A DNA stretch of 64,000 nucleotides from Anaspis maculata (lineage: Eukaryota > Arthropoda > Insecta > Coleoptera > Scraptiidae): contig OX421961.1 of assembly GCA_949128115.1 (NCBI GenBank), positions 51,322,171-51,386,170 of the forward strand, read 5' to 3'. Below, piece after piece: positions 648 through 59,245 of this stretch. The notes below the pieces were generated by a model that was given only the letters and a program-made list of their open reading frames with translations, was not told where the DNA came from and searched no databases. The translations under genes were made by a program, and so were the position numbers. The number at the start of each line of letters is the position of its first letter. Position 1 is the stretch's first letter.

Positions 648-738
648 TAGTCCGGACGTTAATGGCTCCAACCTTGCGAATCGTGATGCCGGTATGCCAC
701 TTGGCAAAAATGTTGTACATGCCCTATGGTTCATTTTA

Positions 739-2345
739 AGCGGTACACACCTAAAAACACATCGATACTGCATTTTGGAGTGCAGTAACGAGATTTGGTA
801 TGAGCATACTTTATACCAAGACAAGCGATTTGACCCGCAGCACTCGATATTTCGTCCCTTAGGGGGCCAATGGGGGCCCTCCAAATTTTCAAGATGCAAG
901 AACTTTCACATGACGATCATTGAGGCCGCGTTCCACTAAACGACCGCAACGCTCACGACCACGATGAAACTTCAACGTTTGTAGGAGTTGCTAGGGAAAA
1001 TTTGCCTAGCAACTCCTCTAAAATTGAAGTACTATCGTGGTCGTGGGCGATGCGGTCGTTTAGTGGAACGCGGCCTGAGTATCGTCATGTATGTCATAAA
1101 TGAAGCTTACGGGTCTATGGAAAATATTTTCATCAATTGTCGTTGTGTCCGATTCATTCTTCACACTTGAAAAAAAAATTCTTTGGCAGAGGTCAAAAAA
1201 ACTGTTTTTATTTTTTCTTCTATGCAAGGAGACGATAAATTCATATGTTCTGTTGCGTTCCCAACTAAATCGCATTCCTTGAACCTAATTATAAAGAAAT
1301 TTTTCTTGAATTGGTATTTTGCAAAGAAGTGGTGACCTCTTCAGTACCCCTTTTCCAAGAGCATTTCTTTCTATGTCCCCACTGGATATCACTCGTAATT
1401 TTTGCAGGAATGGAGACCTCGAACTCTTTACCTGGTGGTTGCGAAGCAACATGACTCTAAAACGCCCAAAGGAGCCAAAAAAAAATATTTTCTGCTGGGC
1501 CGTCCAACTTTCGATATTTTGATTTTATAGTAGGAGAGACGCGGACCAGTATTCAATCCAGGCTGCAGGCGCAGGCGATTTGGTTTCAACGGAAAATATT
1601 CTTCCATGCCGTGTTTTATTGCAGTACAACAAAACGCAGAGTCGTTAGGTGTAAGTAGGTATATTTTCCGGTAGAACTTATTCGCCTAGACTAGATCTTA
1701 TTTATTTGCGCGTCTCCCCTACTACAAAATCAACATGCCAAAAATTTGACGGTCCAGCAGAAAAAAAAAGTTTTAGGGCTCTCTTGTATGTTTTGAAGCC
1801 ATGTTGCATGGAAATTACTAAGAAAAGAGTTCAAGCTTCTCATATCAGCGAAAATTGACAGTCTTATCCACTAAGAACATTGAAAAAAATGCTGTTGAAA
1901 AAAGTGTACTGAAGAGGTCACCTCTTCTTGGGAAAATGATATTGCGAAAAAATTGTCTTCATATTTGGGCTTACGGAACGCGATTTAGTTGGGAACGCAA
2001 CAAAACATATGCATTTATCGTTTCCTTGCACAGCAAAAAAAATAAAAACAGTTTTTTTGACCTCTGCCAAAGAATTTTTTTTTCAAGTGTGAAGAATGAA
2101 TTGGACACGACGACATTTGATTAAAACATTTTCAATAGACCCGGAAGCTTCACTTATGACATACATAACGATACTCAATGATCATTTTGTGAAAGTTCTT
2201 GCATCTTGAAAATTTGGAGGGCCCCCATTGGCCCCCTAAGGGACGAAATATCGAGTGCTGCGGGTCAAATCGCTTGTCTTGGTATAAAGTACGCCCATGC
2301 AATATCTCGTTGCTGCACTCCAAAATGCGGTATGCTTTTGCGTAC
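739..2345. mobile_element. Large inverted-repeat (foldback) element nested in the left arm of A
   Basis: Bases about 739-1540 are an imperfect inverse of about 1715-2345, with a spacer near 180 bases. Matching landmarks are CATTTTGGAGTGCAG near 771 against CTGCACTCCAAAATG near 2314, the GGGGGCCAATGGGGGCCC block near 855 against 2218-2240, and the AGTAG.GGAGACGCG block near 1530 against 1715. Outer edges near GCGGTAC / GTACCGC are approximate. It interrupts an otherwise continuous match between the left and right arms of element A, so it inserted after A. No coding capacity is recognisable; the open frames inside are short and appear in both arms. The target duplication is not clear. Confidence 0.65.
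924..1075. mobile_element. 152-bp MITE, Harbinger-like ends, TSD TGA
   Basis: Near-perfect foldback: starts GGCCGCGTTCCACTAAACGA and ends with the inverse. It is flanked by TGA on both sides (921-923, 1076-1078). A GGCC start and a 3-bp TNA target fit non-autonomous PIF/Harbinger elements (inference). It sits in the left arm of the 739-2345 element and is absent from the matching place in its right arm (near 2180), so it is the youngest of three nested layers. Confidence 0.8.
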
Positions 2346-3499
2346 CGCTCCCACTACATCTACTGCCACTCCCGGCAGATCCTCAATATTGTGGGTTACA
2401 TATCTCCCAGGGGCAGATTTATAAAATCTACGTTTTCTTGGTTATTCGATCGAAAATCGAGCTGATTTTTGGTAGGTAGGCATGAATCATGATTACACGT
2501 GATGTCCACTATGTCATGACGACCCAAGGTGACGTTTTGCGAGTTGCCACCTTTCAGAGGAGAAGAAATCCGGAATCTCGGATTTGACGAATAATGGCTT
2601 TTTCAATTCCATTTCTGATCATCGAAGTAGGGTTTACAACGGGATAGGGTAAAATATTTCACCTTGATGTGACATTGGTAACTTGCTGTTGCCTGGTACG
2701 TATATAATCCATGATAGAAATGCACTCGGAAATGCAAAATTTCAATCCAACCTAGAATGAATTGAGAAGAGCTGAAAATTTGAGGATCGCTTCAGAATTC
2801 GATGGCTAACCACATATTAAGTATATTTTTCCAAGGTCGAGAAACACAATGCAATATGCAATAAGTTTCCAGAAAGTGTAATGCACCAGTTGCGTACCAG
2901 ACGGTTTATTGCGAAGTAGCCGAGGAAGTAGCCAAGGTGCGATTTTTCACAAAGTCTTACATATTAAATCGTGACTAACAGCTTTTGTGACATGTTTGAC
3001 ATCATTTTTAACCAAATCGTACATTTTGACTCCAAAAATTAGTGAGGAATGTTGATAGAGACGTGTTCTATCTAACCGGTTTTTTGTGACGAAAACATGA
3101 TTTTTTTTATCCTCAAATTTGATGTTTTGTAATTCTAGTTCCATCATTGTCATTGTCCAATGTATGACTATGATAATAACTATGATTTTGACTTGGACAG
3201 TTGGTTTGAATTATTCCAGACACAAATATCGTTTGCTAAAGTTCTTTTCCCGTTTTAATAAAGTCACGGAGTAATCTAGTTTCTTGAGAATATGTATCAT
3301 GTCAAAGCTTGATCTGATGAAAAGTGCTATTTATTTCATAGGAAAAAATATGCTAGGGTTAGAATGTAGCTTTGATTTGGTCCTTTATTCATTTTAATGC
3401 ACGAGAATAGTTTTTTCTATAAAAGAAAGCAAAGAAAACTGAAATCAGAGCCGTATTTTAGTCCGCATGACAGCATTTTTCTTCCGATTGAAGGACGAT

Positions 3500-4480
3500 A
3501 AATTGCTGTAAGTCAGGAAATGCCGGAAAGGCATCTAGTTACTTGAAACGAAAAGTGGAACAATGATTTGAATCAACGTCTGGTTTCATTAATAATCAAC
3601 TTTACAGATTAATGAAACAATCCAACAATCTTGGAAGCAAATGGGAGGCGGCGGTTTGGTCATGGTCATCTGGTTCTGAAAAGATAAAACGGGTGTGAGC
3701 ATTACACTACTCTCATGAATTGATCTCAGGTCAGTTTAGTGTTGAATTCAACTCAACTCAGTCTTGAATCATTCCGACTTTAAAACACTTTCACTCAGCC
3801 TTACTAAATACGCGACTTGGCCTTCTATAAGCATTACGGAAACATCACGTGAATACCAACCAGAGTCAAAGTAAACAGCGTGATAATGAAACGTACAATG
3901 GCACCCCCAACGAGCACCTGTTTCCAATACCACATCACGTGTATCAAGCGTGATTATTTCATTCCTGGTCTGTCTACAACGGGTGATCACCACCGATACA
4001 AGCAACCTGGTCCTGTGCCGATTCGTGCAATGGAGCCGCATAAGGGTCCTGTCCAGCCACACAGGACCACTCTAATACCGACCGTGCAATGGAGCCACCA
4101 GAAAGGCCCCCGACCGCATATTAGCGCAGACAACCTCCAATCTACTTTGTATAAGCAATGCTGAGGTTATCATGTTCGATTGTTTACATAATATGGATAG
4201 TCAATTACAGTAAATAAGTAGGTATATGCTCGTGAGAAGACTCACCGTTCAGATGCTGACAGCTTCGTAAATTTGTCACAGGGAGAAATGCACCTTGCCA
4301 TCAGTAACTATGCATAATTTCACATACAAAGGTAAACAAAGTACAACCAACTGTTGTTGCCAATTGTTTTAAAAAATAGGTGTCTTACACGATAATGCAA
4401 ATTTTTGAAATAAAACTCCTGCATGATGCATCTTTTGGAACAAAACTACCGTGTGACTCTGTAGCAGCGGAAGAAACTCC
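3500..4480. other. Interior of element A, no gene recognised
   Basis: This is the non-repeated centre of element A before the duplicated block. A short motif GTGCAATGGAGCC occurs twice 60 bases apart (about 4027 and 4087) beside CCTGTCC / GGACC hairpin-like segments. Open frames of fewer than 100 codons occur on both strands, but none shows a motif I recognise. Confidence 0.4.
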
Positions 4481-5474
4481 TAGTGTATCAAATTCTTCTA
4501 TAAAACAGTTCAGTTGAGCAATGTAGGTATTTCAAAATTGTGATCGTGACTGTTTTGGACCATGATGAAAACTATTAATGCATAGGTCGAAACTTCGCGT
4601 TTTTTTCACGAAATTTATTCCGCATTGTCGGAATAAAAGCGATGTCAAGACAAAAATACGGCCCCGATCTCAAATCCCTTTGTTTTATATTATAGAGAAA
4701 ACTATTTTCATGCATAAGAATGAATAAATTATCAAATGAAAGGTACATTGTAACTCTAGTATAGTTCTTCCTGCGAATAGCACGCTTTGTCCCATCAAGC
4801 TGTTGACATGAGATATCTCTAAAAACAATATTTCTCTTTGACCTCATAAAAACAGGGAGAAATTTCATCAAATAATATTTGTGTGTAAAATAGCCAAGCC
4901 AACTGTTCAAGTCAAAATCAGTTACAAATACTTTGGGTCACGATGGAACTCGAATTACAAAACATCAAATTTGAGGGTGAAAAAATCAAGTTTTTTTCCT
5001 GATAAAACCGGATCCAACACGTCTCTATCGACATTTCACACTAATTTTTGAAATCAGAATGTGCGATTTGGTTAGAAATGATGCCAAGCATGTTAAAAAA
5101 GGTGTTAGTCACGGTTTAATACAGGACTTTGTGAAAAATCGTACCCCGGCTCCTTCGCAGCCGTCTGGTACGCCATTGGTGCATTACACTTTCTGGAAAC
5201 TTATTGCATTGTGTTCCTCCACCTTGAAATTATATAGTCCAATGAAAAAAGTACAAAAAAAGCAAAGATTTCAAAAATGGTAACTTCTTGGACCTTCGAC
5301 CACCAATATCAAGGATCTGCCAGAGGTGAGAGGTGGGCTCCATTTCTTAAAATGAACCATAGGGTATATACAACATTTCTGCCAAGTGGCATCACGGCAT
5401 CACGGATTTGCAAGGTTGGACCCAAATATGGCGCTTAGCATCCGGACTATATGAGTCATCTACATAGATACAGT

Positions 5475-5630
5475 TATAATAATAATAATAATAATAATAA
5501 TAAACTGTCTTTATTGATTTTCCAGAATTAAGGATAAGAAATAAAAATTGAAGTAAAATAAACAATAAAAAATCAAAAGCGAAGTTCAGATGGGTGCACC
5601 ATCACACCTCCTGATGCTCTACCCTAACCT
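5475..5630 (-). mobile_element. LINE 3'-end fragment with (TTA)n tail
   Basis: On the minus strand an AT-rich segment with an AATAAA-type signal (ATCAATAAAGACAG) runs into a (TTA)n microsatellite at about 5475-5503. This is the layout of a non-LTR retrotransposon 3' end. No coding part remains. An identical copy lies at 9672-9827 within the duplicated block. Confidence 0.5.
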
Positions 5631-5947
5631 CAGTTCAATTCTTAAAAGATGCACCTTACGTCACGACTTTATTTTCGAGTTATGCGCAACGTTATTGTCA
5701 TGTATCACCGTGTTGAGAAGAAACAGCATGGGCTATCATGTCTTTAACACACTTTATTGGTGAGAGCGTGACGATGACAAAGACAACTGCATAAATCCAG
5801 TCGTAGCGCATACCGCTTATTGTCTCGTCCTGTTGGTGCCAGTACCAGAGCATCTCTACAAACTGCATAAACTGCGACTTACGTCCTGGTCTTAATTCAT
5901 ACGCATACGATCGATGACGTAAGGTGCATCTTTTAAAAATTGAACTG
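5631..5947. mobile_element. 317-bp MITE with CAGTTCAATT termini
   Basis: TIRs of about 33 bases: CAGTTCAATTCTTAAAAGAT at the left and its inverse ending AATTGAACTG at the right, followed by TA. CAGT termini next to TA suggest a Tc1/mariner-type non-autonomous element, but the left flank reads CT rather than TA, so the target site is not certain. A duplicate lies at 9828-10144. Confidence 0.65.
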
Positions 5948-6068
5948 TACCTACGCATGATCATTGTCATTATTCATTCTCATTATAGCCACTTACCGGT
6001 ATCAAGTACTTTGGGAAATTAGAAAATTGTTAATATTACTTACAAATATTTTGTATCGTGGAGAATAG

Positions 6069-8677
6069 ATAGATAGATAGATAGATAAGTTTATTGTTCC
6101 TTAATACAAAAGCAGTATTTTAACAAATTTAACATAAAAGAAATCCGCTTACACAATAAAAATGGGTTATTCATTGCTCACTGAGTATTAATACTATAGT
6201 AAAAGTAAGACGTATGATCACAGTGTAATTCAGGGTTAAAGTACAAACATTTCAGTGGTGGTCGTCTCCTCAACTCCAAGGCGGGGCAGGAGAGTGAGTT
6301 GTTCTGAGTCACTCGAATTCGTCGTGTATTAGGGAACGAGTCCTAAAGGCCGCAATACAGAAGAGATAGATATGATCTATTTTTTGGGGGGTTAGTTGTG
6401 TCATGAGATCTCTGTAGAAGGTCTCGGGTGTGGCAGTCTCTGAAAGGTATTGGCTCAACCATTTTTGACGGTAGCCCTGGTATAGTGGACAGACGCAGAG
6501 GACATGAAACAGATCTTCCTGAACGAGATGATTACACAGGTTACAATTAATGGCTGCATCAAACATGCATTTTGATCCATTTACATAAAATCTGTAGAAT
6601 TTCTTACTAGCTAGTCTGAGCTGGGTGATAAGTCTAATCTTATGGATGTTCAAGTTGTACCTAAAATAAGGTAGGTCATTTCTAGATTGATCGTAGATTT
6701 CAGTATACATGGGATTGTAGGAGGATTCTCTCATTCTGATGACGTCTGCTGTTAACAATTTGGTTCTGCAGGACTTTATTATTTCTTCCAGTCTTCCCTC
6801 TGTGTACAAAAAGCTGTGTTTTTCCCAGATATCACCCAGCTCAAACTCGTTCAGAAGTACCTTGAATTGGGTCACCCAGTTGTAACTTGGTAATGACGTG
6901 TTGTTGTAATTTTCGTCTAATGATTTTAGTTTATCGTAGCAAGTTTTTGGGAGCCTATATGAGGGCATTCTCAGGATTTTAGTCCACCATTTAACACTTC
7001 TTTCGAGTATATTCAGTCTCAGTTTTGATAAGCCTGTTTCCAATCGTATGAAGTAGTTAGGTGTGCTATTAGGCAAATACAGCAAAGACTTTACAAATTT
7101 CATCTGGGTTTTCTCCAGGATGTTCTCGTACCTTAGTGCCCAGATTTCTGCTGAATACATTAATGTTGCCAGAATGATTGTACGGTAAAGATGCAGCTTG
7201 GTTTCCCAACTCTTCGATCTGCAGTTGCGCAGCGTTTGTAAAGTTGTGCCTATTGCAATATTTGCCTTACTGGCGAAATGCTCTGCCGTTTTTTGGAATA
7301 AGCACGAACTGGTAAATGGGATTCCTAAGTATACATATTTGTTAACGGTTTTTACGTGGCTTTCTGCATATTTAAATCTGTATGAGCATCGAGTTGGGCC
7401 TTTGCTGAATATAAGTACTTGCGTTTTGTCGGTATTCACAATCAATTTGTTTTTGGTGCAATATTTGTGAAGTAAACAAAGTTTTTTTTGGAGTTCTACT
7501 GGTGAGTTGGAAAGTAGCACCAAGTCATCTGCGTACATTAGGACCGTTACTTCTGTGGAGCTATCTATACTGACGCCTCTGCAGTCATTTTCTTTGAAAA
7601 AAGCTTCTAGGTCGCTGATGAATAATGAGAATAAGAGAGGGCTAAGAGTGTCTCCCTGAAGAACGCCCTTGGTTACCCCAACTGGTTCACTGTAAAGCCC
7701 TACCTCTGCTTTGATTCGAACTGTAGCGTCACTGTACATTTTCCCAATGATTCGGACCATTTTGCCACTGATTCCCATATTATAGAGCTTCTCGTACAAT
7801 ACTTGATGAGATACCGAATCGAATGCGGCCTTGAAATCAACAAAGCAGGCGTACACTTTTCCCTTAGGTACCCTTAAATGTAAATGTACAATGCTAGTTA
7901 GCACAAAAATATTATCACTGCAGCCCCTTCCCCTGCGGAACCCTGCCTGTGCTTCTGGAATCAGCTTTTTGCTTTCTGCCCATTTTGTGATTCTGCCAGT
8001 GAGGATACGTGTGAAAAGCTTGAAGAGAGCGTTACACAGTGCAATACGGCGATAATTTTCCGGGTTGTTCGTTTCTCCCTTTTTATAAATCATTAGCAAG
8101 TTGGCACCTCCCCACTCACTAGGCGGTTTTTCTTCCATTATTATGATGTTGAACAATTTTAAAAGAACATATTTGAAGTTAACTGGAAGGTTTTTATAAA
8201 ATTCGTTCACTAAACTGTCTGGTCCCGGTGCCTTTTGTTTCTTAAGGGCGCGGAGGTGATTTTCTAATTCTGTTATTGTTATTAAATCGTCTAGGACTGG
8301 ATGAGATGAATCAAAATATGTTTCTTTGTTTGTTGTTGATAATAATTGTTGATCGTAGTACGCCTTCAAATACCTCTCCCATTGCAGATGACTAACTTTA
8401 CTGTGTTTATTGATGTTTTTCTTTCTAGGTCTAAATTTTTGAATCGTGGCCCAGAATTCATTTGGGTTTTTTACTTTCGCTAGTGATTCTTGGCAAAGGT
8501 CGTAGTGGTCTTTTTTTGTTTTAATTAGGAGTTTTCTGTATGAAATTTTTGCCTGGTGGTATTTATTGATATATTCGTGTCGAAAACTATGTGTCCTACA
8601 ATCTCGTAAGCACGCTCTGATTTCCTTTTTTTGCCATTCGACATTGGGAGTTGTACCACGGTTTGGATTTGGCTATA
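6069..8677 (-). mobile_element. 5'-truncated LINE with (CTAT)n tail between duplicated flanks
   Basis: A non-LTR retrotransposon read on the minus strand. The 5' end is cut at about 8677, inside the region before the RT domain, so the endonuclease part is missing. The 3' UTR is 6069-6308 and ends in a (TATC)n run (GATA on the plus strand, about 6064-6087). Both flanks are copies of the same 1588-bp sequence. If these are target duplications from target-primed reverse transcription, they are extraordinarily long. Confidence 0.85.
6309..8672 (-). CDS. LINE reverse transcriptase, 5'-truncated open frame
   Basis: An uninterrupted frame of 787 codons that enters from the truncated 5' side; a TAG at 8673-8675 marks the junction. 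No convincing start codon exists because the N-terminal endonuclease part is lost. Visible RT motifs are RRGRGCSDN, KAAFDSV (about 7812-7832), GVLQGDTLSPLLFS and the catalytic YADD (7524-7535). A C-terminal cysteine/histidine cluster (CNLCNH...FHVLCVC, about 6481-6546) is the type found at the end of many LINE proteins. The family's role is to copy its own RNA into DNA at a nicked target. The clade is uncertain. Lack of stops over 2.3 kb suggests a recent insertion. It cannot be autonomous without an endonuclease. Confidence 0.88.
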   Translation of the reverse strand, partial: PNPNRGTTPNVEWQKKEIRACLRDCRTHSFRHEYINKYHQAKISYRKLLIKTKKDHYDLCQESLAKVKNPNEFWATIQKFRPRKKNINKHSKVSHLQWERYLKAYYDQQLLSTTNKETYFDSSHPVLDDLITITELENHLRALKKQKAPGPDSLVNEFYKNLPVNFKYVLLKLFNIIIMEEKPPSEWGGANLLMIYKKGETNNPENYRRIALCNALFKLFTRILTGRITKWAESKKLIPEAQAGFRRGRGCSDNIFVLTSIVHLHLRVPKGKVYACFVDFKAAFDSVSHQVLYEKLYNMGISGKMVRIIGKMYSDATVRIKAEVGLYSEPVGVTKGVLQGDTLSPLLFSLFISDLEAFFKENDCRGVSIDSSTEVTVLMYADDLVLLSNSPVELQKKLCLLHKYCTKNKLIVNTDKTQVLIFSKGPTRCSYRFKYAESHVKTVNKYVYLGIPFTSSCLFQKTAEHFASKANIAIGTTLQTLRNCRSKSWETKLHLYRTIILATLMYSAEIWALRYENILEKTQMKFVKSLLYLPNSTPNYFIRLETGLSKLRLNILERSVKWWTKILRMPSYRLPKTCYDKLKSLDENYNNTSLPSYNWVTQFKVLLNEFELGDIWEKHSFLYTEGRLEEIIKSCRTKLLTADVIRMRESSYNPMYTEIYDQSRNDLPYFRYNLNIHKIRLITQLRLASKKFYRFYVNGSKCMFDAAINCNLCNHLVQEDLFHVLCVCPLYQGYRQKWLSQYLSETATPETFYRDLMTQLTPQKIDHIYLFCIAAFRTRSLIHDEFE

Positions 8678-10265
8678 TAGTGTATCAAATTCTTCTATAA
8701 AACAGTTCAGTTGAGCAATGTAGGTATTTCAAAATTGTGATCGTGACTGTTTTGGACCATGATGAAAACTATTAATGCATAGGTCGAAACTTCGCGTTTT
8801 TTTCACGAAATTTATTCCGCATTGTCGGAATAAAAGCGATGTCAAGACAAAAATACGGCCCCGATCTCAAATCCCTTTGTTTTATATTATAGAGAAAACT
8901 ATTTTCATGCATAAGAATGAATAAATTATCAAATGAAAGGTACATTGTAACTCTAGTATAGTTCTTCCTGCGAATAGCACGCTTTGTCCCATCAAGCTGT
9001 TGACATGAGATATCTCTAAAAACAATATTTCTCTTTGACCTCATAAAAACAGGGAGAAATTTCATCAAATAATATTTGTGTGTAAAATAGCCAAGCCAAC
9101 TGTTCAAGTCAAAATCAGTTACAAATACTTTGGGTCACGATGGAACTCGAATTACAAAACATCAAATTTGAGGGTGAAAAAATCAAGTTTTTTTCCTGAT
9201 AAAACCGGATCCAACACGTCTCTATCGACATTTCACACTAATTTTTGAAATCAGAATGTGCGATTTGGTTAGAAATGATGCCAAGCATGTTAAAAAAGGT
9301 GTTAGTCACGGTTTAATACAGGACTTTGTGAAAAATCGTACCCCGGCTCCTTCGCAGCCGTCTGGTACGCCATTGGTGCATTACACTTTCTGGAAACTTA
9401 TTGCATTGTGTTCCTCCACCTTGAAATTATATAGTCCAATGAAAAAAGTACAAAAAAAGCAAAGATTTCAAAAATGGTAACTTCTTGGACCTTCGACCAC
9501 CAATATCAAGGATCTGCCAGAGGTGAGAGGTGGGCTCCATTTCTTAAAATGAACCATAGGGTATATACAACATTTCTGCCAAGTGGCATCACGGCATCAC
9601 GGATTTGCAAGGTTGGACCCAAATATGGCGCTTAGCATCCGGACTATATGAGTCATCTACATAGATACAGTTATAATAATAATAATAATAATAATAATAA
9701 ACTGTCTTTATTGATTTTCCAGAATTAAGGATAAGAAATAAAAATTGAAGTAAAATAAACAATAAAAAATCAAAAGCGAAGTTCAGATGGGTGCACCATC
9801 ACACCTCCTGATGCTCTACCCTAACCTCAGTTCAATTCTTAAAAGATGCACCTTACGTCACGACTTTATTTTCGAGTTATGCGCAACGTTATTGTCATGT
9901 ATCACCGTGTTGAGAAGAAACAGCATGGGCTATCATGTCTTTAACACACTTTATTGGTGAGAGCGTGACGATGACAAAGACAACTGCATAAATCCAGTCG
10001 TAGCGCATACCGCTTATTGTCTCGTCCTGTTGGTGCCAGTACCAGAGCATCTCTACAAACTGCATAAACTGCGACTTACGTCCTGGTCTTAATTCATACG
10101 CATACGATCGATGACGTAAGGTGCATCTTTTAAAAATTGAACTGTACCTACGCATGATCATTGTCATTATTCATTCTCATTATAGCCACTTACCGGTATC
10201 AAGTACTTTGGGAAATTAGAAAATTGTTAATATTACTTACAAATATTTTGTATCGTGGAGAATAG
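8678..10265. repeat. 1588-bp direct duplication, copy 2
   Basis: Second copy of 4481-6068. It carries an orphan right end of element A (ending at 9656), the LINE tail fragment (9672-9827) and the CAGTTCAATT MITE (9828-10144). After 10265 the sequence continues as TATATTATC, whereas copy 1 is followed by the LINE tail. The copies therefore flank the LINE exactly. Confidence 0.9.
9828..10144. mobile_element. Duplicate of the CAGTTCAATT MITE
   Basis: Identical to 5631-5947 by virtue of lying inside duplication copy 2; not an independent insertion. Confidence 0.65.
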
Positions 10266-13995: not shown

Positions 13996-15375
13996 TAGTC
14001 CAGTCACTATGTTCAAAAAGTAGTATCAATTTCGGAAAAATTAGTAGAGGGTTGAAATTTCGTACACATAATCCTTTGATAGTCTTGAATGACCTATAAA
14101 AAGTCCCCTATAATCCGAGCTTAGAAACTTTGGCTAATCGCCATCAAGTGTTAAAAAGGCGTTTTTTTGGCGAAGAAGCCATTTCTTTATAGCAAGATTG
14201 TTCTTTTTGTAATTGAATGATTGCGTATTACCATCTTGACAATCACCATACCCTATTTCTACTTTTGCGCGAGTGGCGGACCCAAGATGGCGGCCAAGAA
14301 GTAAAAACAGTTGACTGTCTTATTTCCAATAGTAGCAGACTTAAAAAATGTCGGATGATCGCATTTTTTTTCTGATATAATTCATCATGAAAATACCAAG
14401 TTATACTTCAATATCTGAAGAAATCACTGATTTATTGAAAAAAGTTGAATTGTGAAAAATTTTCAGATTTTTTAGAATATTTCAAAAACAGTCGAAGATA
14501 TTTCGGAACCGTCCACAAAATCTTTGTAAGCATAAAATTACGAATATATATTGAGATTTAAATGTCTCCAGCTGTTTCGGTTCCTGAGGTATTTTTTTAT
14601 ATATTTCACTTCCCCCAACCTGCTGAATATGACGTTTGCATGGGTATAGCTGATATTTACCCTGCAACTACATTAACAATTAATCAAAATTAGTAAAAAC
14701 ATGATGTGCAAATAATTTTTGCACTGTGACAATTTCTTCAGACTAAATAACGGTAGCATACCAAACCCGTCGAGAAAAGAAATGAAGAAACAATCTTCAA
14801 GAACCAAAATAGCTGAACACATAAAAATCACCCTATATATTCGTTAATTTATGCTCACGAAGATATTGTGACCGGTTTCGAAATTTCGATTGTTTTTGAA
14901 ATATTCTGAATGAACTGAAAATTTTTCATAAGTCAACTTTTCTCAATAAATGAGTGATTTTTCGAGATATTGAAGTAAAACTTGGTATTTCCATGATAAA
15001 TCATGTTAGAAACAAAATGCAGTCATCAGACTTTTTTTAGGTCTTATACTAATGGAAATAAAACAGTCAACTGTTTTTCCTTCTTGGCCGCCATCTTGGA
15101 TCCGCCATCTACGCAAAAAGAGAAATAGTGTATGGCAATTGTCAAGATGGTGATACGCAATCATTCAATTACATAAAGGACCATCTTGCAATGAGGAAAT
15201 GACTTCTTCGCCGAAAAAACGACTTTTTGACACTTGATGGCAATTATCCAAAGTTCCTAAGCTCGGATTTTAGGGGACTTTTTACAGGCCGTTCATGACA
15301 ATCAAAGGAATGCGTGTACAAAATTTCAACCCTCTCCTAATTTTTCCGAAGAAGAAAGACATAGTGACTGGACTA
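13996..15375. mobile_element. Element C: foldback transposon, TAGTCC termini, TSD CAA
   Basis: Begins TAGTCCAGTCACTATG and ends with the inverse CATAGTGACTGGACTA. Flanked by CAA on both sides (13993-13995, 15376-15378). The arms are about 0.6 kb each (to about 14610, and from about 14750), so almost the whole 1380 bp folds back on itself. Both arms contain a GGCGGCCAAGAAG-type segment and a TTTTTCAGATTT/ATATTTCAAAAAC segment. It has no coding capacity and is presumably mobilised by a relative such as B or D (inference). Confidence 0.8.
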
Positions 15376-15378
15376 CAA

Positions 15379-18655: not shown

Positions 18656-19647
18656 CTAGTGGCTCACCTCATCCTCCTCCTTCCTCACTATAGTCCAGTA
18701 AAATAAGGATTTAACTTGGAACAAATTTGGGGCAGGATGAAAAAAATATGGCGATGTAGAGAATGGAAAACTGAATAAGAAAAACCAATGTATCATTTCC
18801 AGTCATCTCGGGAACTATGGAAAAAAATGGAGAAGATGGAAAATCATGCGCCGCGATCTTTCTTTTGAAACGGTGAGAGAACGGTGAGAGATGTGTGAAA
18901 ACTGTCAGGAACAAAGTTGTAGGGAATTCAATAATCTATAAAAAAGTTCCTGGGGGCATATGTCTAACTTTTCCAGTTTAGCCGTTTATTGCAGTCAGAG
19001 TTGCGCGCCGGTCAAGTGAAGTGGAAAAACTGTCCCCGTGACCTTCCTTCTTGGATGCTGTGAGAACGACAAGAGATATCAAAAAATTGTGGGCGACGAA
19101 GTTGTAGAGAATTGAATGCTCTGCTAGAAAATCTTCAAGGCCAATCAGTATCTTATCTAGTTTAGCTGTTAGCCACGTTTGAAGTTGCGCAACAATCCTG
19201 TTGATAAAGTGCTTCTTCTGGAAAACTTACAAAACCCCTAAACTCGATGAAAAGACTATGACAATGTAGAGGATGAAAAACTGGATCTGAAAAACCAAAG
19301 TTTCATTTCACACCGTTTCGGGAAACTTGAGGAAAAAAAGAAAAACTTGAAAAATAGTGATTTGCACTCGCAGCTTCCTCATTGAATACTGAAATAAACG
19401 TATTAAATATGGAAAATCTGAACAAACTAGCTTGTAGAGGATTAAATGATCTATAGAAAATTCCGTGATGTCATGTATGCATCTTTGTCGACTTAGCTGC
19501 GGAGCGCTATCAAAGTTGGGGTACATGACTAATGACACGTCGCATATGTGGTGAAACTGGCACGACGTTGCGGTCATTGTTTAATTGATTATAAAACATG
19601 ATTGAATGATTTGAAAAAATTGCGTGCTTTGTTTAACGTCTGGGTAG

Positions 19648-19771
19648 CTACTTATTGTTAGAATTATCATTGTAGTCATCATCATCGTCTTCCGAAACGA
19701 CAATGCAGGAAGCGTGAGAACAGGTGGCTCCACGGCAATGGTGGCAAAACTTGGTACACTTGAGGTCAGCT
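19648..19771 (-). pseudogene. C-terminal CXC cysteine cluster and acidic tail, 3' part
   Basis: Read on the minus strand directly below the hAT insertion, the frame continues the upstream fragment as L-K-C-T-K-F-C-H-H-C-R-G-x2-C-x4-C. It then has an acidic run (SEDDDDD) and a TAG stop at 19648-19650. This is the second half of a tesmin/TSO1-like CXC domain, a zinc-binding DNA-binding fold. If the hAT element and one copy of its 8-bp duplication are disregarded, the two halves are in frame. The gene's N-terminal two thirds are not recognisable in element B, so this is a relic. Confidence 0.65.
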
Positions 19772-20746
19772 CAGTGGCGGCTGGTGAGGGAGGGCTCAAG
19801 GGCGGCGCCCCCCCAACGCTAAAGGCGGCAAGAGATTTTTATCGGTAGGAAGACATGGAATGCATTTTATTAATTATACTTATTCCAAAGATTTGGTTTA
19901 ACTAGTGCAAAAACGTTCAGTCATTAGTCATTTAATATTTTAACAAAATAATTCTAGGCGATCGCACGGTCGAAGAAGTTCGTCTTGGGCTCCGCATTCG
20001 GCGCCCATCGCCGATGCGGTGATGCCGGGGTGCACCCGCGCAAAACATGTACCGTAACCATGGCAACGCGAGACGCGGCTCCCGCTCTATATTGCAGGTG
20101 ATGGGCTCCGTCACCCGAGCCCCCAGCCGATTGAAATAATCGATATAATTATTTATGCACTCTTCGATTAGTTAACAGTTTGCAAACATGAAGATAACTG
20201 ACCTAAAAAAGGTACATTTAGGTCATCAAGCCTACAAAAAGAAATAAATGCAAAAAAACAACGGACGTCCGATTACAGCATTGATTTACTGGATATAAAG
20301 CAAATCGAACCCGCAAGATTAAATTCGTGATGCAATAACTCACACGTAATTTTGACAAAACAGTAAATGCTAAAACTCCATTATGGTTGTGATGGTTTTG
20401 GATACGACAAAAAAGTTTTTGTCTCGAGTTTCGTCATTTCGCGAACTGAGAACTGTTCTATCTGCACTCTTCGTAGAAAATGTTTTTCGAACTTCGAACC
20501 AACAAAACATGGACGAAATGTTTCATGATTTGAACAATTAAATCAGAAACGGGAAAGGAATAAAAGCCTATTTTTCTAGTTTCTGATCTAATTGTTTATA
20601 TCAGGAAACATTTTATCCATGTTTTGCTGGTTCGAAGTTCGAAAAACATTTTCTACAAGAAGTGCAGATAGAATATTATAGTTCTCAGCTCGCGAATTTG
20701 TTATTAACTTGAGCCCTCCTTGCAAAAAACTCACGAGCCGCCACTG
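19772..20746. mobile_element. 975-bp hAT-type element inserted in element B, perfect 8-bp TSD
   Basis: Starts CAGTGGCGGCT and ends AGCCGCCACTG. Flanked on both sides by GGTCAGCT (19764-19771, 20747-20754). No transposase frame is visible. It contains a nested foldback (20423-20712). It interrupts the CXC reading frame of element B, so it is younger than that element. Confidence 0.92.
20423..20712. mobile_element. Foldback element nested in the hAT element
   Basis: The inverted arms run from CTCGAGTTTCG..GCGAACTGAGAAC through GTAGAAAATGTTTTTCGAAC and AACATGGACGAAATGTTTC to the loop, and back again. A partial single arm of the same family is at about 30150-30262. The symmetry could yield a hairpin transcript. 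Confidence 0.75.
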
Positions 20747-20933
20747 GGTCAGCTTTTCTGCATCCACAAAGCTTCTCGCAGTTTTCCAAGCATCTGCAGG
20801 AAATCAGCTGTAGCAGATTTTCGAGAGCTACGTTATCCTGGGTTCTAATTGGCATCAACAGAGAAATGTTTAATCTCCAACCCCATTGTTCAGGTGAACA
20901 GTTGTTTATTATCTCCGAGCTATTGTTGAATGA
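20747..20933 (-). pseudogene. WGW block and first half of a CXC domain, transposon relic
   Basis: The minus-strand frame is open from 20933 to the hAT junction. It reads a SPEQWGW block (WGW at 20877-20885) followed by LLQLISCRC, then C-x3-C-x3-C-G-C-R-K-A-D. From memory, a proline-rich WGW segment followed by L-I-x-C-x-C-K and a CXC cysteine cluster is the C-terminal layout of a family of uncharacterised proteins common in insect and cnidarian genomes. The same family is suggested by the remnant in element D. In-frame stops lie upstream (TGA at 20934-20936), so the gene is broken. Confidence 0.62.
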
Positions 20934-21092
20934 TCATTGTTCATCAGAAATCAGTTGAAAAATATCTCATTATCTAACGTGAATCACGTTTTTCAATTAT
21001 TATACATATTGTGTTACAAAATTCGAGTACTTTCTCAGTTTTAAGCCCGAGTGTCACGATACTATTTTTGTACTATTTTGATGCTATAAATA

Positions 21093-21839
21093 CAGGGTGT
21101 CCCGAAAATACACCGACAACGTTCTAGGGCAGCTTCCTCTCATCAAAACAAGAAAAAAAGTTTCCATGAACATGGATCCGGAAACGCTTCCTAAGGGAGC
21201 TACAGGCTCCTAAAGGTGGGACCCTGAAGATGGTTTTTATTCAATATATCCGAAACTGTTGAAGGAAAATCAATCACACTTGACACTTACACTAACCTTC
21301 TTATGCCCAACAAAATGAGGCAAGATTGATTCCAAAATAATTCACCAGGGGTGGGTCAGGCTGAGGTGTGAGGGTAAAAATAACCCTAACTTTTTTTAAT
21401 GTGAATTGTTTCCAAATTTAACAAGAAATTATGGAATATTGGAGTTTTTTACCAAAAAAAGGTCCCTCTGTTCAACCTCGATAGATGCACCGTTTACGAG
21501 ATATTTGAGATCGAGTGTATGAAAACGTGGTCAGAAATGATGATTTTTCAATTACGATATTCAAGGCGAAAGAAAAACTATTTCAAAGTAACTTCATTTC
21601 TGTTAGGCATTCAAATTTTGTTGAGCATAAGAAGGTAAATAAATGTGTCAAGTTTGATTGATTTTCCTTGAACGGTTTCGGAAATATTAAATAAACAACC
21701 ATCTTCAGGGTCCCACCTTTAGGGGCCTGTAGCTCCCTTATAAAGCATTTTCGGACCCATGTTCATGGGAACTTTTCTTCTTATTTTGATGCAAGGAAGC
21801 TGTCCTAGAACGTTGTCGGTGTATTTTTAGGACACCCTG
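21093..21839. mobile_element. 747-bp MITE with CAGGGTGTCCC termini, TA target
   Basis: Starts CAGGGTGTCCCGAAAATAC and ends with the inverse ..TTTTAGGACACCCTG, with TA on both sides (21091-21092, 21840-21841). The inverted arms extend over GACAACGTTCTAGG and further in (GGTGGGACCCTGAAGATGG against CCATCTTCAGGGTCCCACC). Tc1/mariner-type ends. Nested in element B. Confidence 0.85.
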
Positions 21840-23047
21840 TATATGATTAGAAACGACAAATTTAGAAATCCCCCAGCAACCTAGTCTCTCGTCCTAGATT
21901 TCTAGAATGAAAATATGACGAAATAAGTACAGTGACACTCGACACGACTTTAATTTTGCCAAACAAGAAACTTTATACATAACAAAGCGTTTATCCGCGG
22001 AGTTACATTTCCAACAATAGTTACCAGACGTTCAACAAGGCACGCAATTTTTTCAAATCATTCAATCATGTTTTATAATGAATTGAACAATGACCGCAAC
22101 GTCGTGCCAGTTTGACCACATATGCGACGCGTCACTAGTCATGTACCCCAACTTTGATAGCGCTCCGCAGCTAAGTCGACAAAGATGCATACATGTCATC
22201 ACGGCATTTTCTATAGATCATTTAATCCTCTACAAGCTAGTTTGTTCAGATTTTCCATATTTAATACGTTTATTTCAGTATTCAATGAGGAAGCTGCGAG
22301 TGCAAATCACTATTTTTCAAGTTTTTCTTTTTTTTCTCAAGTTTTCCGAAACGGTGTGAAATGAAACTTTCGTTTTCTAGATCCAGTTTTTTATCTTCTA
22401 CATTGTCATAGTCTTTTCATCGAGTTTAGGGTTTTGTAAGTTTTCCAGAAGAAGCACTTTATCAACAGGATTGTTGCGCAACTTCAAACGTGGTTAACGG
22501 CTAAACTAGATAAGATAATAATTGACCTTGAAAATTTTTTAGTGGAGCATTCAATTCTCTACAACTATGTCCCTCACAATTTTTTGATATCTTTTGTCGT
22601 TCTCACAGCATCCAAGAAGGAAGGTCACGCGGACAGTTTTTCCACTTCACTAGACCGGCGCGCAACTTTGACTGCAATAAACGGCTAAACCGAAGAAGTT
22701 AGACATATGCCTTCAGGGACTTTTTTGTAGATTAATAAATTCCCTACAATTTTGTCCCTGACAGTTTTCACACATCTCTCACCGTTCTCTTACCGTTTTA
22801 AAAGAAAGATCGCGGCGCATGTTTTTCTATTTTCTCCATTTTTTTCCATGGTTGACGGGATGACTGGAAATGAAAGTTTGGTTTTTCTTATTCAGTTTTT
22901 CATTCTCTACATCGCCATATTTTTTTCATCCTGCCCCTAATTAGTTCCAACTTTGGCCTAAAAATCGCCTCATTTTACTGGACTACTAGCCGTTCAGTTC
23001 TAGTGACTTGAAAACGCTATACCCTCGGCTCGAGCCTCGGCTATACC

Positions 23048-43763: not shown

Positions 43764-44037
43764 ACTGTGAAGTACATGATTTTATTTTCGGGATGTAGAA
43801 TTTGATAACTTGAGCAAGCGTTCAGAAACTGAAGATGAAACTGCTAAGTTGCAGTGAGTGATAAAAAAGAAAACAATTCAAGACAGTAAATCACGAATAA
43901 AGAACATGATTGTTTAAACTTATACCAGAAAACAAAGGATAATGTTGGTATAAGTATAAGCAATAGAAATATCACCACAAGTACCTACTTGGAAGGTTTC
44001 AATAATTTTTACAAAATATATGTCTCTTTGTCTGTAT

Positions 44038-45515: not shown

Positions 45516-45521
45516 GAAAAC

Positions 45522-45690: not shown

Positions 45691-45699
45691 AAAACAAGC

Positions 45700-50659: not shown

Positions 50660-51568
50660 TATAGTAGGTTCACTTGTATACTGTGACTCTAGTTGGCTAA
50701 GCAAATTTTCTACTTTAGCATTGTAGGCTTGCCGCCTTTTCACCTGGTGTGAAACTGACTTCTCTGGAAGTAAAATTATATTTCTTATCAAATTGATATT
50801 GAAATCTTGGAGAACTGACCTGGTCATAAGTGGAAGTGCGACTAGGGGGACGCAGAGCTGTGTTACCGTCATGTAGACACCAAAAGAGCACGGGGCGGCC
50901 GCAAATCTAAGTCATCTTGACGGCGGCCCATTCAGGGTCGACAAAAACTCGTCCCGGGAAGCCCCAAAACGAAAGCAAATTGCAAATTGAAGGTACCTAC
51001 ATCCATTTCGGTCCAATACGCAACTTTGAGCGGCTGGGTTTTTTGAAATTTAGTTTAATTTACTTTTTACACGTAAATTCTTTTGCCAATGGCAGACTGC
51101 ACGGCGATCCTTGTATCGCCTATAATTCTTCAGGGTTTGGCTTGTATTTTTGACTGGAAGAGGCGAAAGGGTTGATGATTGCATGGGGCCTTCTTTTTTG
51201 GACGAAGGGCATTGTATACTCTTCAATTTGAACCATAGAAAGTTGAACCGGCTTCGAGAGGTTATAAATATTTTTGACAACTGTCAAATGTCAAGACTCT
51301 TTTGATTTATTTGTTCATTGGCGAAAATTGACAACAGGTCGAAAAATCGCTACATTTTCCAATAAAATGGAAAAAAGCGTCAGACATCACGTGCCGCAAA
51401 AATGTTCCGGCTATCTGCAGAGGAAATACGCAAAAAATGTGTTTCAAAACTGGTCCGGCCAGAGCAGCCAACTGCAAAGTTCTGGGGATTTTCTATATTT
51501 CACATTTGGAAACTTAGAAACAAAATCTTACAGCCGACTAGAATCACGGTACAAGTGAACCTACTATA
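50660..51568. mobile_element. TIR element T, copy 2 (909 bp), inverted
   Basis: Starts TATAGTAGGTTCACTTGTATACTGTGACTCTAG and ends ..CTAGAATCACGGTACAAGTGAACCTACTATA. Inverted relative to copy 1 and about 1.24 kb away. Slightly longer than copy 1 and with better preserved ends. Confidence 0.8.
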
Positions 51569-51751
51569 CTAAAAGGTGGGCGACTGTCAGTCGTGAAGTC
51601 TCATTTGTCAAACATTTCTATTTTTAGCAGCTAGAATTTTGAATTTCCAAGCGATTCGCAAGCTCGTTTAGCCCAGTCAGTCTAGACTTCATATCATAAA
51701 TACCGGGGTCGAATTCGCCCAGAGCTGATTTTTGGTCCAGTGAGTCCTTAG

Positions 51752-53999: not shown

Positions 54000-54219
54000 C
54001 AGAAACCTCTTACAGTAAAGTATCCCCCCGTATGATAATTTTACTGATTTTAGTAGTTCGACATTTCCTAAATTACTTCGCGTCGGTGCCCAAGTCCTTT
54101 TTAGTTTATAGTTGTAGTTTTAATCCAATTAAATTAGCAGCGAATGTTAATGAAATATAAAATCGTCGAATTCCAACTCTGAATCTATTGGCAAAGTTTC
54201 GAGCCATAATAAAAACAAA

Positions 54220-54720: not shown

Positions 54721-55257
54721 AAGCAAGCAACTCTGAGGGCGCGCGTCGTATCAGTATTCATGTTTTCGCCTCCTTTTTTCCTTGGTCTCTGCCTGCTCTC
54801 TCGTGTTCCCTCCCATTATCATGTTCATTTCTTCACAAATATTCCTTTATTAATAACACTTCAAGAATTACTCGTAGATGAGTTGTAGCCCACCCTCAAT
54901 TCATCTTCATCCATCAAAAGCGCCGGTGATTATGAAGCGATCCGGGACTGGAAGTAACTAATCGCACTTCAAAGGATGTCTATTATGAAGAATTCTTAAA
55001 CTGAAACACCGCCACTATGCAATACTGATGCAAAGAAAATCAGAGACGTTATAACTCTGTTTGAAAGAGTATGAACCTGTTTCGAAAGAATGGTGTTGTG
55101 TATTGTGGAATTTCGTATAACGCAATAAAATGAAGTGCCGTTGAAAGTATAGGTATGGGAAGAAATGAACATTGCATATCCAGCACTCATATAGGCGTCC
55201 ATTATTGTTTTTAAGGGGATCTCTATACAGGGTGATTTGGATTCAGAAGCATAATAA

Positions 55258-55767
55258 TGTTACGAGCGGCGATCTTGTACATATAGGTAAACACTCGATG
55301 TTTCTCGATCTTTCCACCATTAGATCGCAGTGTAGGAGTCTGGAGCGATCTCGTGCATTCCAGAGCGTTATTGTATGTGAACCCAATGGGGACTTGAACG
55401 TTTGATCAAGGCACATCAGTCCACTTTGGCGGAGGCGCAGATTTCAGAACACATGGAAAGCATACAGGTAACGTGTGCGATTATTCAGGAATGATCTAGA
55501 AACCGCATATGCCAGACCCTCATGGAATTTGCTGGAAGCAGACAGAAACTTCGGGAACATTATTCGGAGGCCTTATATAAGGCGTCAGCCGGGAGCTCGC
55601 GGCAGTAATGAATTAGATAGCGAGTGTTAACAAGCGAAGTACCTGCGACATAATTCCAAGCGATAATTGTTGGCATTTATTGTAGTAGTAGTACGCAGAA
55701 ATAAACAGTGTGTGTTTTAAAAGTTTGTCTCAATTATATTCGAACCCGTACGCGAAATATCGTAACA
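55258..55767 (+). repeat. 5' long terminal repeat
   Basis: 510 bp. Starts TGTTACGA and ends TCGTAACA, a perfect 8-base inverted terminus of the TG..CA type. TATATAAG at 55574 is a likely promoter and AATAAA at 55700 a polyadenylation signal. Related to the solo LTR at 44038-44560 but clearly diverged from it, so the two derive from different insertions or subfamilies. Confidence 0.92.
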
Positions 55768-55769
55768 GT

Positions 55770-55785
55770 TGGTGTCAGAAAGCGG
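55770..55785 (+). promoter_or_regulatory. Primer-binding site
   Basis: TGGTGTCAGAAAGCGG begins two bases after the LTR. A TGGTGTCAGAAG-type start is common in Ty3/gypsy elements. It should be complementary to the CCA end of a host tRNA, perhaps tRNA-Leu, judged from memory. One extra A compared with the usual form may be a mutation. Confidence 0.75.
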
Positions 55786-56599
55786 TATAGTCCGGCGGCA
55801 AGGTGTAACAATTGTGCACAATGGGCTAAAAGCAATTTTATTTTTTCAAGTTAATATTTGGACCCTAAAGAATATTTCCAGATAGAGACCCCAACCGATT
55901 AGGCCCTGTTTAGCGACCCTTAGCAACGCCAACTTCGATCAATATTTTTCATCCATTTTTGTACATTACTTTTATGATAATTGACGTATACCATCTAATA
56001 AGGTGTCGATTCTAATGTTTTTGAAGACAAGGAACTCAAATATGATGGTCTTGAAGCTTTTGAAGTTGAAATTGCGAACCTGATGGATGGTTACTGGTAC
56101 CTTATTGATTAAAACATTTGAAAAAGTTGGCTGACAATCTTCAAGAATAATTGAAATGAGAAGTCTATAATGAGAGATCGAGGGTCATGATTTGACGTTC
56201 TACAACTTACCTTCGAGCTTACCTTAGTTCATCGAGAATACGTGCTTGGGTTTTTCTCTTCGCGAGATCGAAATCAAAGCAGTCGCAATTTTCCAAATAG
56301 TCAATAGTTACGATTATTCCTAAAATTTCTGTTTTTAATTTTAAGTAAAACATAGTTTAAGTATAGTAAAAAAAACACGTGATTGCATTCACTCGCCATG
56401 CCACCTTAGTTTTTATTGGTAATAACAATAACTAATAGGCGCTGATAGGCAAGATAAGGTTTGAAGGCTCAATGATGAACTTCAAAATGACGTTCCTTGA
56501 TTATTTCCAAAGGATAAATCGAGACGTAAATAATGTAAGCAGATTTTGACCATCATTCCATCTTGGTTCTACCTCAAACAATAACTTACTTCCCTTTTT

Positions 56600-58110
56600 T
56601 CAGCGCTTCGGAGTTAAGACAAACATTCGGTGTGGTGTGTGCGATGCAGTTCCGCTGACGTCTTGCAACTGCATGAAATGATTTCGTGCCAAGCTTTCTT
56701 TGGTGATGGCCCATCAGCTAGTCCATTGGATTTAAGATGAAAAAAAAATCCATTTCTTGATAAGAAAAAGCTTCACATGTTAGGTAGCAGGTAGTTTTTT
56801 CACCTGTCATCGGGATTTACTGTCTTTTGCCGTCCAAAATTAGAAAGATCCGGTGGGGTGCAGTTTTAAACTGAAACTCTGAGCCCATATATGCCCTGCT
56901 TGAAGATCGTAGAGACGTGAAGCATTTTGAGTGAGAGGAATAATTTCTATATTTCGTCCCTTCTGAGATAAAAAGACGGAAACGAGAAACATCAACTTCT
57001 TTGTCTTTTGAGCATCTGTCATACACGAGGTCACGAGGATAACAAATTTCTCAAGCGCAGGCATAGCTTGATCTGCCTCTTCTACTAATAATGTATTTGA
57101 CAAATTGTGAAAAACTCCATCGACAAAAGGCTTTTCCCCAAGCACTAAAGGTCGTACGTTTGCCTTTGGTCCTGAAACTCAAAGTTATATAGCTCCAAGT
57201 AAAGGCATGAAAAAACAGGCCGAAGCATTCATCTGATCCTACAACTTGCTGAATCAAAGCTACATCAAGCACACGATAGGGTTTTTTCACCACCAAAGCA
57301 ATCCTCAGACTTTAGACCCTCGTAGAGTCCAAAAACGCTGTTGCCAGAACGACCACATCCATATCTACTGTGCGGATGATGATGATTAGCTTCAAGCCTC
57401 CAGCAGAGCACATTCGTCTGCGCATGAAGTATCATTCCAATACCATAATTTGCTTCTTCGTGATAACAGGGCATAAAGTTATTCAGATTCGCTGGAATAG
57501 AACAGAGTAGGTACTTAAGTACTGCATCATTTTGTGTAGCAACAACTTCTTCTGGGTAAGTCTCTGGTGCCAATTAGATCACTCAGGGATCAGAACATCT
57601 CCCGTTTATTGTCATCGTCCATCCCTAAGAAACTCTGCCCAGTTCTTGGGTAGGGTATGTATCACTTTTACTGCTTCAATTCCATGTCTGGCGTCGGTTT
57701 TCCCTTTCGCAAGTAAAATGCAGCTTTCAGTCAATCCTGATGATATTTATCAAACGCTACGCCAATGCGCCGAATTGTTCCAACAAACTGACTGGCTACC
57801 TGCTACGTAGGCGACAAATCTTGTCCCGTACGCACTGAATTTTCAGCCCAGCTGCAGCACCATCGATTATAATAACATTTCGGCAGTAGAAGACAGAGAA
57901 TCTTTGGAAGAATTTTCTTCTCTTGGAAAACTCCAAAAGATTGAATTTTTTACAAAAACAAAGTTTACCAATACCTATCTGATAGAGCTGGTGGGAAAGG
58001 CTGGTTCCTGTGACGGAGAAAATCTCCCTAATTACCTTTACGCACTTGGTCAGAGACATAATTATGCAACTTCAAAAAGAAGTTCCCTTCTTTGCGCCTC
58101 CAGAGACGCA
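56600..58110 (-). pseudogene. Element D protein relic: FEN/XPG-like motif series plus decayed C-terminal cysteine region
   Basis: Broken by stops and frameshifts, but ordered fragments are readable on the minus strand. They are IIIDGAAAG (about 57850-57880), YHEEANYGIGMILHA (about 57423-57470), IIRTVDMDVVVLATAFLD (about 57320-57385), FFHAFTWSYIT...KGKRTTFSAW (about 57130-57220), and ALEKFVILV...KGRNIEIIPLTQNA...QAGHIWAQS (about 56870-57060). Near 56650 an ISCSCK start of a CXC-like cluster follows. From memory, intact relatives read HEEADTR, VDTDVVVL and HA(L/F)TGCDT. DG, EEAD, DxD and GCD parallel the acidic clusters of FEN1/XPG nucleases. In D the GCD is replaced by WSY, so the copy is dead. 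The nuclease reading is an inference. Confidence 0.6.
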
Positions 58111-58254
58111 ACTTGAAGTTTCTGGTGGGATTTGAGGCATTTGACGACTCGATGCTGAACGAGAGAACTTTTTTTTTCAAAGAAAGACTAAATTATTATC
58201 GGGAAAGAATTACCGCACTTCGTTAATAGTCTCAATGGGGAACTATAGGCAAGA

Positions 58255-58435
58255 TGGCCGGAATATTGGTCAAAAAACACAGTTTTGAAAATTATTTTTC
58301 AAAAATTTAAAATTGGAGCTCGTTAAGTTGAAGACCATTCTTGTAGTTTTCAAAAAATCCGAAAGAATTTTCTTCCAGAGAAGAAGGTTACTAGAACTGA
58401 AAGAAAACTGTGTTATTTGACCAATATTCCGGCCA
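58255..58435. mobile_element. Small foldback inside element D
   Basis: TGGCCGGAATATTGGTCAAA.AACACAGTT and its inverse AACTGTGTTATTTGACCAAT..CCGGCCA bound 181 bases. Non-coding. The target duplication is not evident. Confidence 0.7.
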
Positions 58436-58673
58436 ACTTTCGGGGCAGAATAAGTCTCAACGAGTCAAGCCATTTTATGTCTCGCTACCTGAAAAGCGCT
58501 GGGGGACCTTCGGTCAGGCTAATTGCGCTAAGCGCTACCATCACCTTTTATCATTTCATTATTGTGTTCAATGGCCTTTATGATCGGTATTTTTGGAATT
58601 GATCGACTTGTTGGTTATTCTTATTGCAATATTGCCAAAGGTCGCATTGTGTTAGTTTAGTTGACGCAAAAAC

Positions 58674-58809
58674 AATGAGTGACTATTTGGAAAACTTCTT
58701 GGATTTTGAACTCGCGAAGAGAAAAACCCGAGCACGTATTTTCGATGAACTAATCAGTTGTACAACGTCAGATTATGACCCTAGATCACTAATTAGACTT
58801 TCAATCTGA
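58674..58809 (+). other. Short open frame in the right TIR of element D
   Basis: ATG at 58674 opens a frame of 44 codons reading MSDYLENFLDFELAKRKTRAR.., charged and possibly helical, ending TGA. Its inverse in the left TIR is partly conserved (GGGTTTTTCTCTTCGCGAG against the AKRKTRA segment). I do not recognise it. It may be the 5' end of a small protein or an exon, or a chance frame. Confidence 0.25.
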
Positions 58810-59245
58810 ATTATTTTTGAAGATTGTCAGGCAGCTTTTTTAATCTTCTTGAACCAATAAGGTACCAGTGACCATCTGAAAGCTCACTTACTGATCACTT
58901 TGAAAGCTTCAGGACAATCATATTTGAATTCCTCGTCCTCAAAAACATGGGAATCGACACCTCAACAGCTATAATACGTCAATTATCATAAAACTGGTGT
59001 ACAAAAATGGATCAGATATTGGTCGAAGTTGGCGTCGCCTTGGGGGGCCAAATAAGGTCTAACCGGTTGGGGTCTCTATCTAGAAATACTCTTTAGGGTA
59101 CAAATAACAACTTAAAGAAATAAAATTGCTTTTAGCCCATTTTGCACAATTGTTATAGAATTCTACATTAAGCCGCCGGACTAGTATAATTGAGAGTAAT
59201 TGGGCCTGCGACTACAGGACGTTCGGAACATTCGTGATTTGGTAA

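Follow-up and report, generated by a model that had tools for sequence, protein, structure and literature searches.

Introduction

AcademX, a lineage of the Academ DNA transposons, has a nuclease of the XPG type. Duplications of 3 bp at the target site are known from PIF/Harbinger, where the duplicated triplet is TWA or CWG, from CACTA, whose ends are CACT(A/G), and from Zator, which has the Zator transposase; the hAT duplication is of 8 bp. Academ is counted among 17 DDE/D superfamilies (PMC10294476). In another account the duplications are of 3 or 4 bp for AcademX and of 9 or 10 bp for AcademH, a difference that seems tied to the encoded nuclease and helicase (PMC10045372). Here we consider a 64,000-nucleotide stretch of the beetle Anaspis maculata (assembly GCA_949128115.1, contig OX421961.1, positions 51,322,171 to 51,386,170; hereafter the window), which contains four elements, named A to D, with TAGTCCRG ends and 3-bp duplications. 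They are probably non-autonomous DNA transposons that move by cut and paste and belong to a single large group, for which the AcademX lineage of Academ is the most likely placement.

Results

Ends, duplications and inverted repeats of elements A–D

The pattern TAGTCCRG occurs on the + strand of the window at four sites (648, 13996, 18691 and 55788) and in inverted form at five (ending at 5449, 9646, 15375, 22985 and 59183), all of them confined to elements A–D except the inverted site 9646. An initial annotation had described four elements sharing TAGTCC(A/G)G ends, each with a perfect 3-bp duplication that differs from the other three, and this is true of all four. The right end of A, placed there at 5459, had to be corrected to 5449, where the inverted pattern stands and the flanks are TAT/TAT. 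Site 9646 was rejected as an independent end, because it belongs to an exact 1588-bp duplicate of part of the window. Markov sequences with this composition would give 0.01 pairs of ends per window that stand 0.2–10 kb from each other between equal 3-bp flanks; five were seen (four without the duplicate).

Terminal inverted repeats (TIRs) of 0.5–1 kb had also been attributed to the four elements. They were found in B (18691-19643 and 22024-22985, with identity in 905 of 967 aligned columns), in C (about 600 bp, 513/600 columns) and in D (55788-56303 and 58680-59183, 416/489 columns). The attribution fails for A, since its outer TIR comprises only 663-740 against 5346-5424, near the ends (71 of 78 columns identical), several other, longer inverted repeats being internal.

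Recurrence of the 3-bp duplications in the genome

The genome searched (757.8 Mb in 50 contigs) contains 38,532 TAGTCCRG sites on both strands, versus 31,247 for the backward-read pattern. If the excess of 7,285 sites consisted of element ends, it would correspond, as a rough figure, to some 3,600 elements. A sample of 21 end pairs was drawn from 100 sites listed of the 38,532, and 13 of them had TIRs, taken as a match of at least 13 of the 16 terminal bases. A perfect 3-bp duplication flanked 11 of these 13 pairs, versus none of the eight without TIRs. Judged by eye, the 11 duplicated elements form eight end families, alike only in about the first eight bases.

The duplications were then counted in a pool of 43 elements, composed of the four of the window, 16 further copies of B, 10 further copies of D and the 13 sampled pairs with TIRs. 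Loci of B entered the pool when both ends were within two mismatches of a 14-base motif; second reads of one copy and the B loci L011, L026–L028 and L030 were left out, and three loci (L003, L004 and L006) were excluded from the count of B, being copies of an insert and not of B. A perfect 3-bp duplication was present in 39 of the 43 elements, versus 73 of 1806 mispaired flanks (4%), and a 4-bp duplication in none. The four remaining elements were off at one of the three bases (L010 and L012) or did not match (L055 and L059). The selection of elements by their ends makes the conservation of the ends partly built in, a bias of which the duplications are free. The 39 duplications comprise 21 different triplets, with TTA or TAA in nine.

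Copy families of B, C and D

Since 40 candidates were scored per search, the copy numbers given here are lower bounds. Sixteen other copies of B had both ends and measured 2537–2576 bp (typically about 2.55 kb, without the two inserts of the window copy), with a perfect 3-bp duplication in 14; the 4.3 kb of the window copy, enlarged by those nested inserts, was thus rejected as the typical length of B. At least 36 further matches spanned at least 98% of the 1380 bp of C, and the duplication was present in eight of ten tested copies, tallied apart from the pool; in a C copy adjoining a C fragment the flanks were unequal (AAA/GTT). For D, at least 22 further matches extended over all 3396 bases with 92–97% identity, and the duplication was perfect in 10 of 10 other copies. 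According to the initial annotation, copies with boundaries elsewhere would speak against the proposed elements; in every family the copies of B, C and D ended at identical boundaries. The claim that the boundaries are credible and the elements form one transposon group is upheld.

Four relatives were read whole. L093 and L094 form inverted repeats from end to end (83–85%), the TIR of L091 covers 690 columns at 82%, and that of L092 only 149 columns at 70%.

Empty sites of D

The flanks of D (window 55255-55787 and from 59184 onward) belong to a repeat like a long terminal repeat (LTR) retroelement, which recurs almost unchanged at 40 or more places of the genome. By eye it resembles the start of such a retroelement, with primer-site-like and gag-like sequence. 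The 150-base flanks of D were joined with a single GTA into a query of 300 bases, and 40 of 2,645 candidates were scored. All 40 matches spanned the junction, 39 spanned the whole 300 bases, the identity was 95–100%, and 33 had no net length difference as judged by coordinates. The sequence TAGTCCGG was absent from the three matches that were fetched (L155, L156 and L157). The alignment covers L156 and L157, L155 being in the other orientation; both cross the junction without gaps, with four mismatches each elsewhere. A comparison of occupied and empty sites had been proposed as a check on the 3-bp duplication and, run for D, it shows that exactly 3 bp were duplicated.

Chance or misreading of the boundaries, which would agree with the lack of the duplication in two of the 13 sampled TIR pairs and in two of the ten C copies, was rejected and is given practically no weight: the expectation per window is far below the number seen, the duplication is present in nearly all of the pool, and for D the exact empty sites refute it.

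Intact relatives and their protein

A degenerate HEEADTR pattern occurred at 35 sites of the genome and, read backwards as a control, at none. The analysis covered the sequence around 12 of these sites and the ends at six more. One of these loci, L123, lies in an element of 6782 bp (C1:31147963-31154744) with ends TAGTAGAGG, a TIR of 581 columns at 93% and an open frame of 1525 aa. Downstream of this frame there are further CXC-cluster cysteines in another frame, and what looks like a short intron lies between. The family of L123 comprises seven sites with a common 20-base motif, the ends of which begin TAGTAGAGGAAAA; in 7/7 the 3-bp duplication is perfect (TAA, TAT, TTA, TAT, ATA, TAA and ATA), and the intact frame was read in one copy of the seven, L123. 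An inner TCGTCCAG was tried as the end of the intact element and rejected, the duplications being false there in 6/6 cases and the TIR running on to TAGTAGAGG.

A second locus, L146, has an open frame of 1608 aa, which aligned with that of L123 in 1407 columns at 25% identity (E 7e-72, the search covering this locus alone). The frame ends ahead of any CXC part; a CXC cluster is seen in the family of L123 as well as in fragments of relatives. Among the HEEADTR sites covered, there was none that lay in an autonomous element with TAGTCCRG ends.

Both frames keep DNxD, an F/YD, LGxFH and a later E, which may form a DDE-type core. After these come, collinear in both, I(L/I)DG, (V/I)FD..SIK, HEEADTR, DTDVLV and FHAxTGCD..S.F.G.GK. 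This second series is likely, though not proven, to be the metal-binding series of XPG/FEN1 nucleases, as judged from the order of the motifs and one weak profile score. With the FEN1/XPG nucleases the protein shares the order of acidic motifs and the GCD..GxGK stretch; it differs in showing no significant match to a PDB chain and in that the nuclease-like part here lies within a transposon protein. The possible DDE core of L146 (residues 765-961) gave a sub-threshold match to the Pfam family DUF6589 (E 0.03), which may be related to this type of transposase. Literature searches for DUF6589 and for TAGTCC returned nothing useful, and neither did an IMG/VR scan. On this reading, the group's protein appears to be a fusion of a transposase with a nuclease of the repair type.

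Protein remnants in B and D

No intact gene was found within elements A–D. Concerning D, a read-through of its broken gene, compared with 13 loci, matched the L123 frame with E 8e-9 over 353 columns, from ILDG to IW ahead of the CXC region, and L146 with E 7e-8, values which are favoured by the choice of the D frames with the motifs known. In the same comparison, the CXC part of B matched L147 (E 2e-6) and L124 (E 2e-5), and three shuffled queries, one shuffle each, gave a best E of 0.27. The earlier proposal that B and D both hold relics of a single protein family, among them motifs like those of nucleases and a cluster of the CXC type, is borne out. The CXC part was present in 27 of 30 loci of the B search, the remaining three being copies of the insert, and it is the only part that B keeps.

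The seven fetched copies of D, or parts of them, were judged by eye for disablements. All seven had the stop that precedes LKAAF and those within LKQ*K*YI, and six of the seven had STRV*SLRI. These common disablements show that D multiplied after its gene had broken, with the enzyme supplied in trans.

Searches in Pfam with the open reading frames (ORFs) of the window and the D read-through gave only a reverse transcriptase of a long interspersed nuclear element (LINE) and one weak match. A PDB sequence search with the D read-through gave no recognised relative, and an Rfam scan of the window had no match.

Other features of the window and of related loci

The coordinates of the elements and of the features inside them are summarized in Table 1. 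The first insert in B, which we take to be hAT-like, has three matches elsewhere (the loci L003, L004 and L006) at 99–100%, so it was mobile recently. The second is presumably Tc1/mariner-like.

Table 1. Elements A–D of the window and the features found inside them
Feature	Position	Strand	Description
Element A	648..5449	no strand	flanks TAT/TAT; ends TAGTCCGGAC / TAGTCCGGAT
Element C	13996..15375	no strand	1380 bp; flanks CAA/CAA
Element B	18691..22985	no strand	flanks CTA/CTA
Foreign insert 1 in B	19772..20746	no strand	975 bp; ends CAGTGGCGG; 8-bp GGTCAGCT flanking both sides
CXC remnant in B	20736..20933	-	C-terminal CXC part of the group's protein
Foreign insert 2 in B	21093..21839	no strand	ends CAGGGTGTCC; TA flanks
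Element D	55788..59183	no strand	3396 bp; flanks GTA/GTA
Broken gene in D	56617..57873	-	pieces, in several frames, of the stretch of the group's protein that has the XPG-like and CXC parts

The 1588-bp direct duplicate mentioned above is 100% identical (window 4481-6068 = 8678-10265) and lies on both sides of a LINE-like ORF (6309-8672, minus strand) with an RVT_1 match in Pfam. Either an insertion flanked by a long duplication or an artefact of the assembly would account for it. A relative of the repeat that hosts D, with 68% identity, is found at window 44035-44562, and another long inverted-repeat structure, with arms of 440 and 350 bp and ends GTATAGTA unlike the TAGTCC type, at 48624-51569.

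Elsewhere in the genome, a 176-bp element, TAGTCCGGACACYAACTGCT (C1:1805848-1806023, ends L055 and L056), has a near-perfect TIR without a 3-bp duplication, and a similar end occurs in L125 and L146. Contig C43 carries at least seven matches to C at 89%, nearly alike and spaced 61–113 kb, which gives the impression of a repeated long unit with C inside it. A copy of D (L101, C3:43386271-43389210) contains at about 545-777 a palindromic insert of about 230 bp from another inverted-repeat family.

Discussion

The placement of A–D with AcademX is based on the length of the duplications, the TIRs, the likely nuclease part and the possible DDE core of the protein, AcademX being described with traits of this kind. 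A duplication of 3 bp, within the 3 or 4 bp of that lineage, was found in 39/43 pooled elements and in 7/7 of the intact family. The TAGTCCRG ends, the foldback derivatives and the CXC tail are features of the elements studied here. AcademH, which would belong to the same superfamily if the placement in Academ is right, differs by its longer duplication of 9 or 10 bp and its helicase; the present elements duplicate 3 bp, and no helicase family was matched when the frames of L123 and L146 were scanned with Pfam. Academ had been named as the closest idea in the initial annotation, and it fits in the nuclease-like part and the 3-bp duplications.

Several observations weigh against this interpretation. 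The comparison with Academ is one of described AcademX traits, and A and C are grouped with B and D by their ends and duplication length alone. The ends of the intact family, TAGTAGAGG, share TAGT and the duplication length with A–D, but not CC. L147, taken by eye for the nearest relative of the D protein, matches D only with E 0.13. A profile of six sequences of the family scored 23.5 against FEN1, with the best stretch at GSDY..GIGPK, a score reached by 0/200 shuffles but approached by the best of them (23.29), 20 decoys scoring 20.66 at most; the hhalign probability for FEN1 was 2.8%. Pfam, NCBIfam and PDB did not recognise L123, L146 or the family profile as a nuclease or transposase. Finally, the attempts to find empty sites with interrupted copies of B, C and D failed (the insert in one of these copies, L149, looks tRNA-derived).

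The initial annotation had also considered an undescribed superfamily. This would be a superfamily or deep lineage, related only distantly to Academ, whose protein unites a DDE-like core with an XPG-like nuclease and ends in a CXC tail; it is in agreement with the lack of any family-library match above threshold and with the absence of the TAGTCCRG terminal signature from the ten best-matching of 401 papers. The former observation carries little weight, Pfam and NCBIfam not being catalogues of transposons, and the combination of a nuclease with a 3-bp duplication is already reported for AcademX. As the protein plan of intact relatives in the same genome and the 3-bp duplications match that description, we consider the proposal unsupported and unlikely. 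Equally unlikely is its fuller form, a distinct superfamily with at least eight end families and TAGTCCRG elements that may number in the thousands, including full-length foldback palindromes; if it were true, the nuclease part may open the hairpins formed by such palindromes.

Another known superfamily with 3-bp duplications, such as Zator, PIF/Harbinger or CACTA, agrees in duplication length. The ends of the present elements are not CACT(A/G), the trait of CACTA, and the 21 different triplets among the 39 duplications, with TTA or TAA in nine, do not correspond to the TWA or CWG of Harbinger. Together with the other protein and the absence of any match between the Pfam transposase models and the intact proteins, this leaves such an assignment very improbable. 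An assignment to hAT disagrees with the 3 bp of the elements, the 8-bp duplication belonging to the insert inside B.

It could also be that A and C do not belong with B and D, their ends and 3-bp duplications having arisen separately or converged on one transposase. In accordance with this, A and C contain no protein remnant and the similarity of the ends stops at base 8–10. On the other hand, the eight bases and the length of the duplication are common to many end families of this genome. For non-autonomous elements, Repbase asks for equal duplication length and an alignment of positions 1–11 with no more than one mismatch (PMC4455052). By eye, B and C stay within this limit, with identity at 10 of the first 11 bases, but A and D, with two mismatches, exceed it. 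A separate origin of A and C is unlikely, a little more so than an undescribed superfamily.

With A–D taken as one AcademX-like group, a mechanism can be proposed from the motifs of the intact frames. The protein has N-terminal Cys/His clusters, a possible DDE-type core and an XPG/FEN1-like part, followed in the L123 family by the CXC cluster. The DDE core would act on the TAGT ends and link them, with a stagger of 3 bp, to the target DNA. During excision or the processing of the ends, the XPG-like part may trim or nick a flap, a hairpin or the second strand, and the CXC and N-terminal clusters would bind DNA. A–D would have been moved by a relative specific for TAGTCCRG ends.

We know of no established reason why a cut-and-paste transposase should contain a repair-type nuclease. 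This genome lends itself to testing what the two presumed catalytic parts do, since a duplication-flanked family of seven copies, one of them read with an intact frame of 1525 aa, exists here beside many foldback derivatives. In addition, TAGTCCRG ends together with a 3-bp duplication provide a simple signature for sorting many unclassified elements of the genome.

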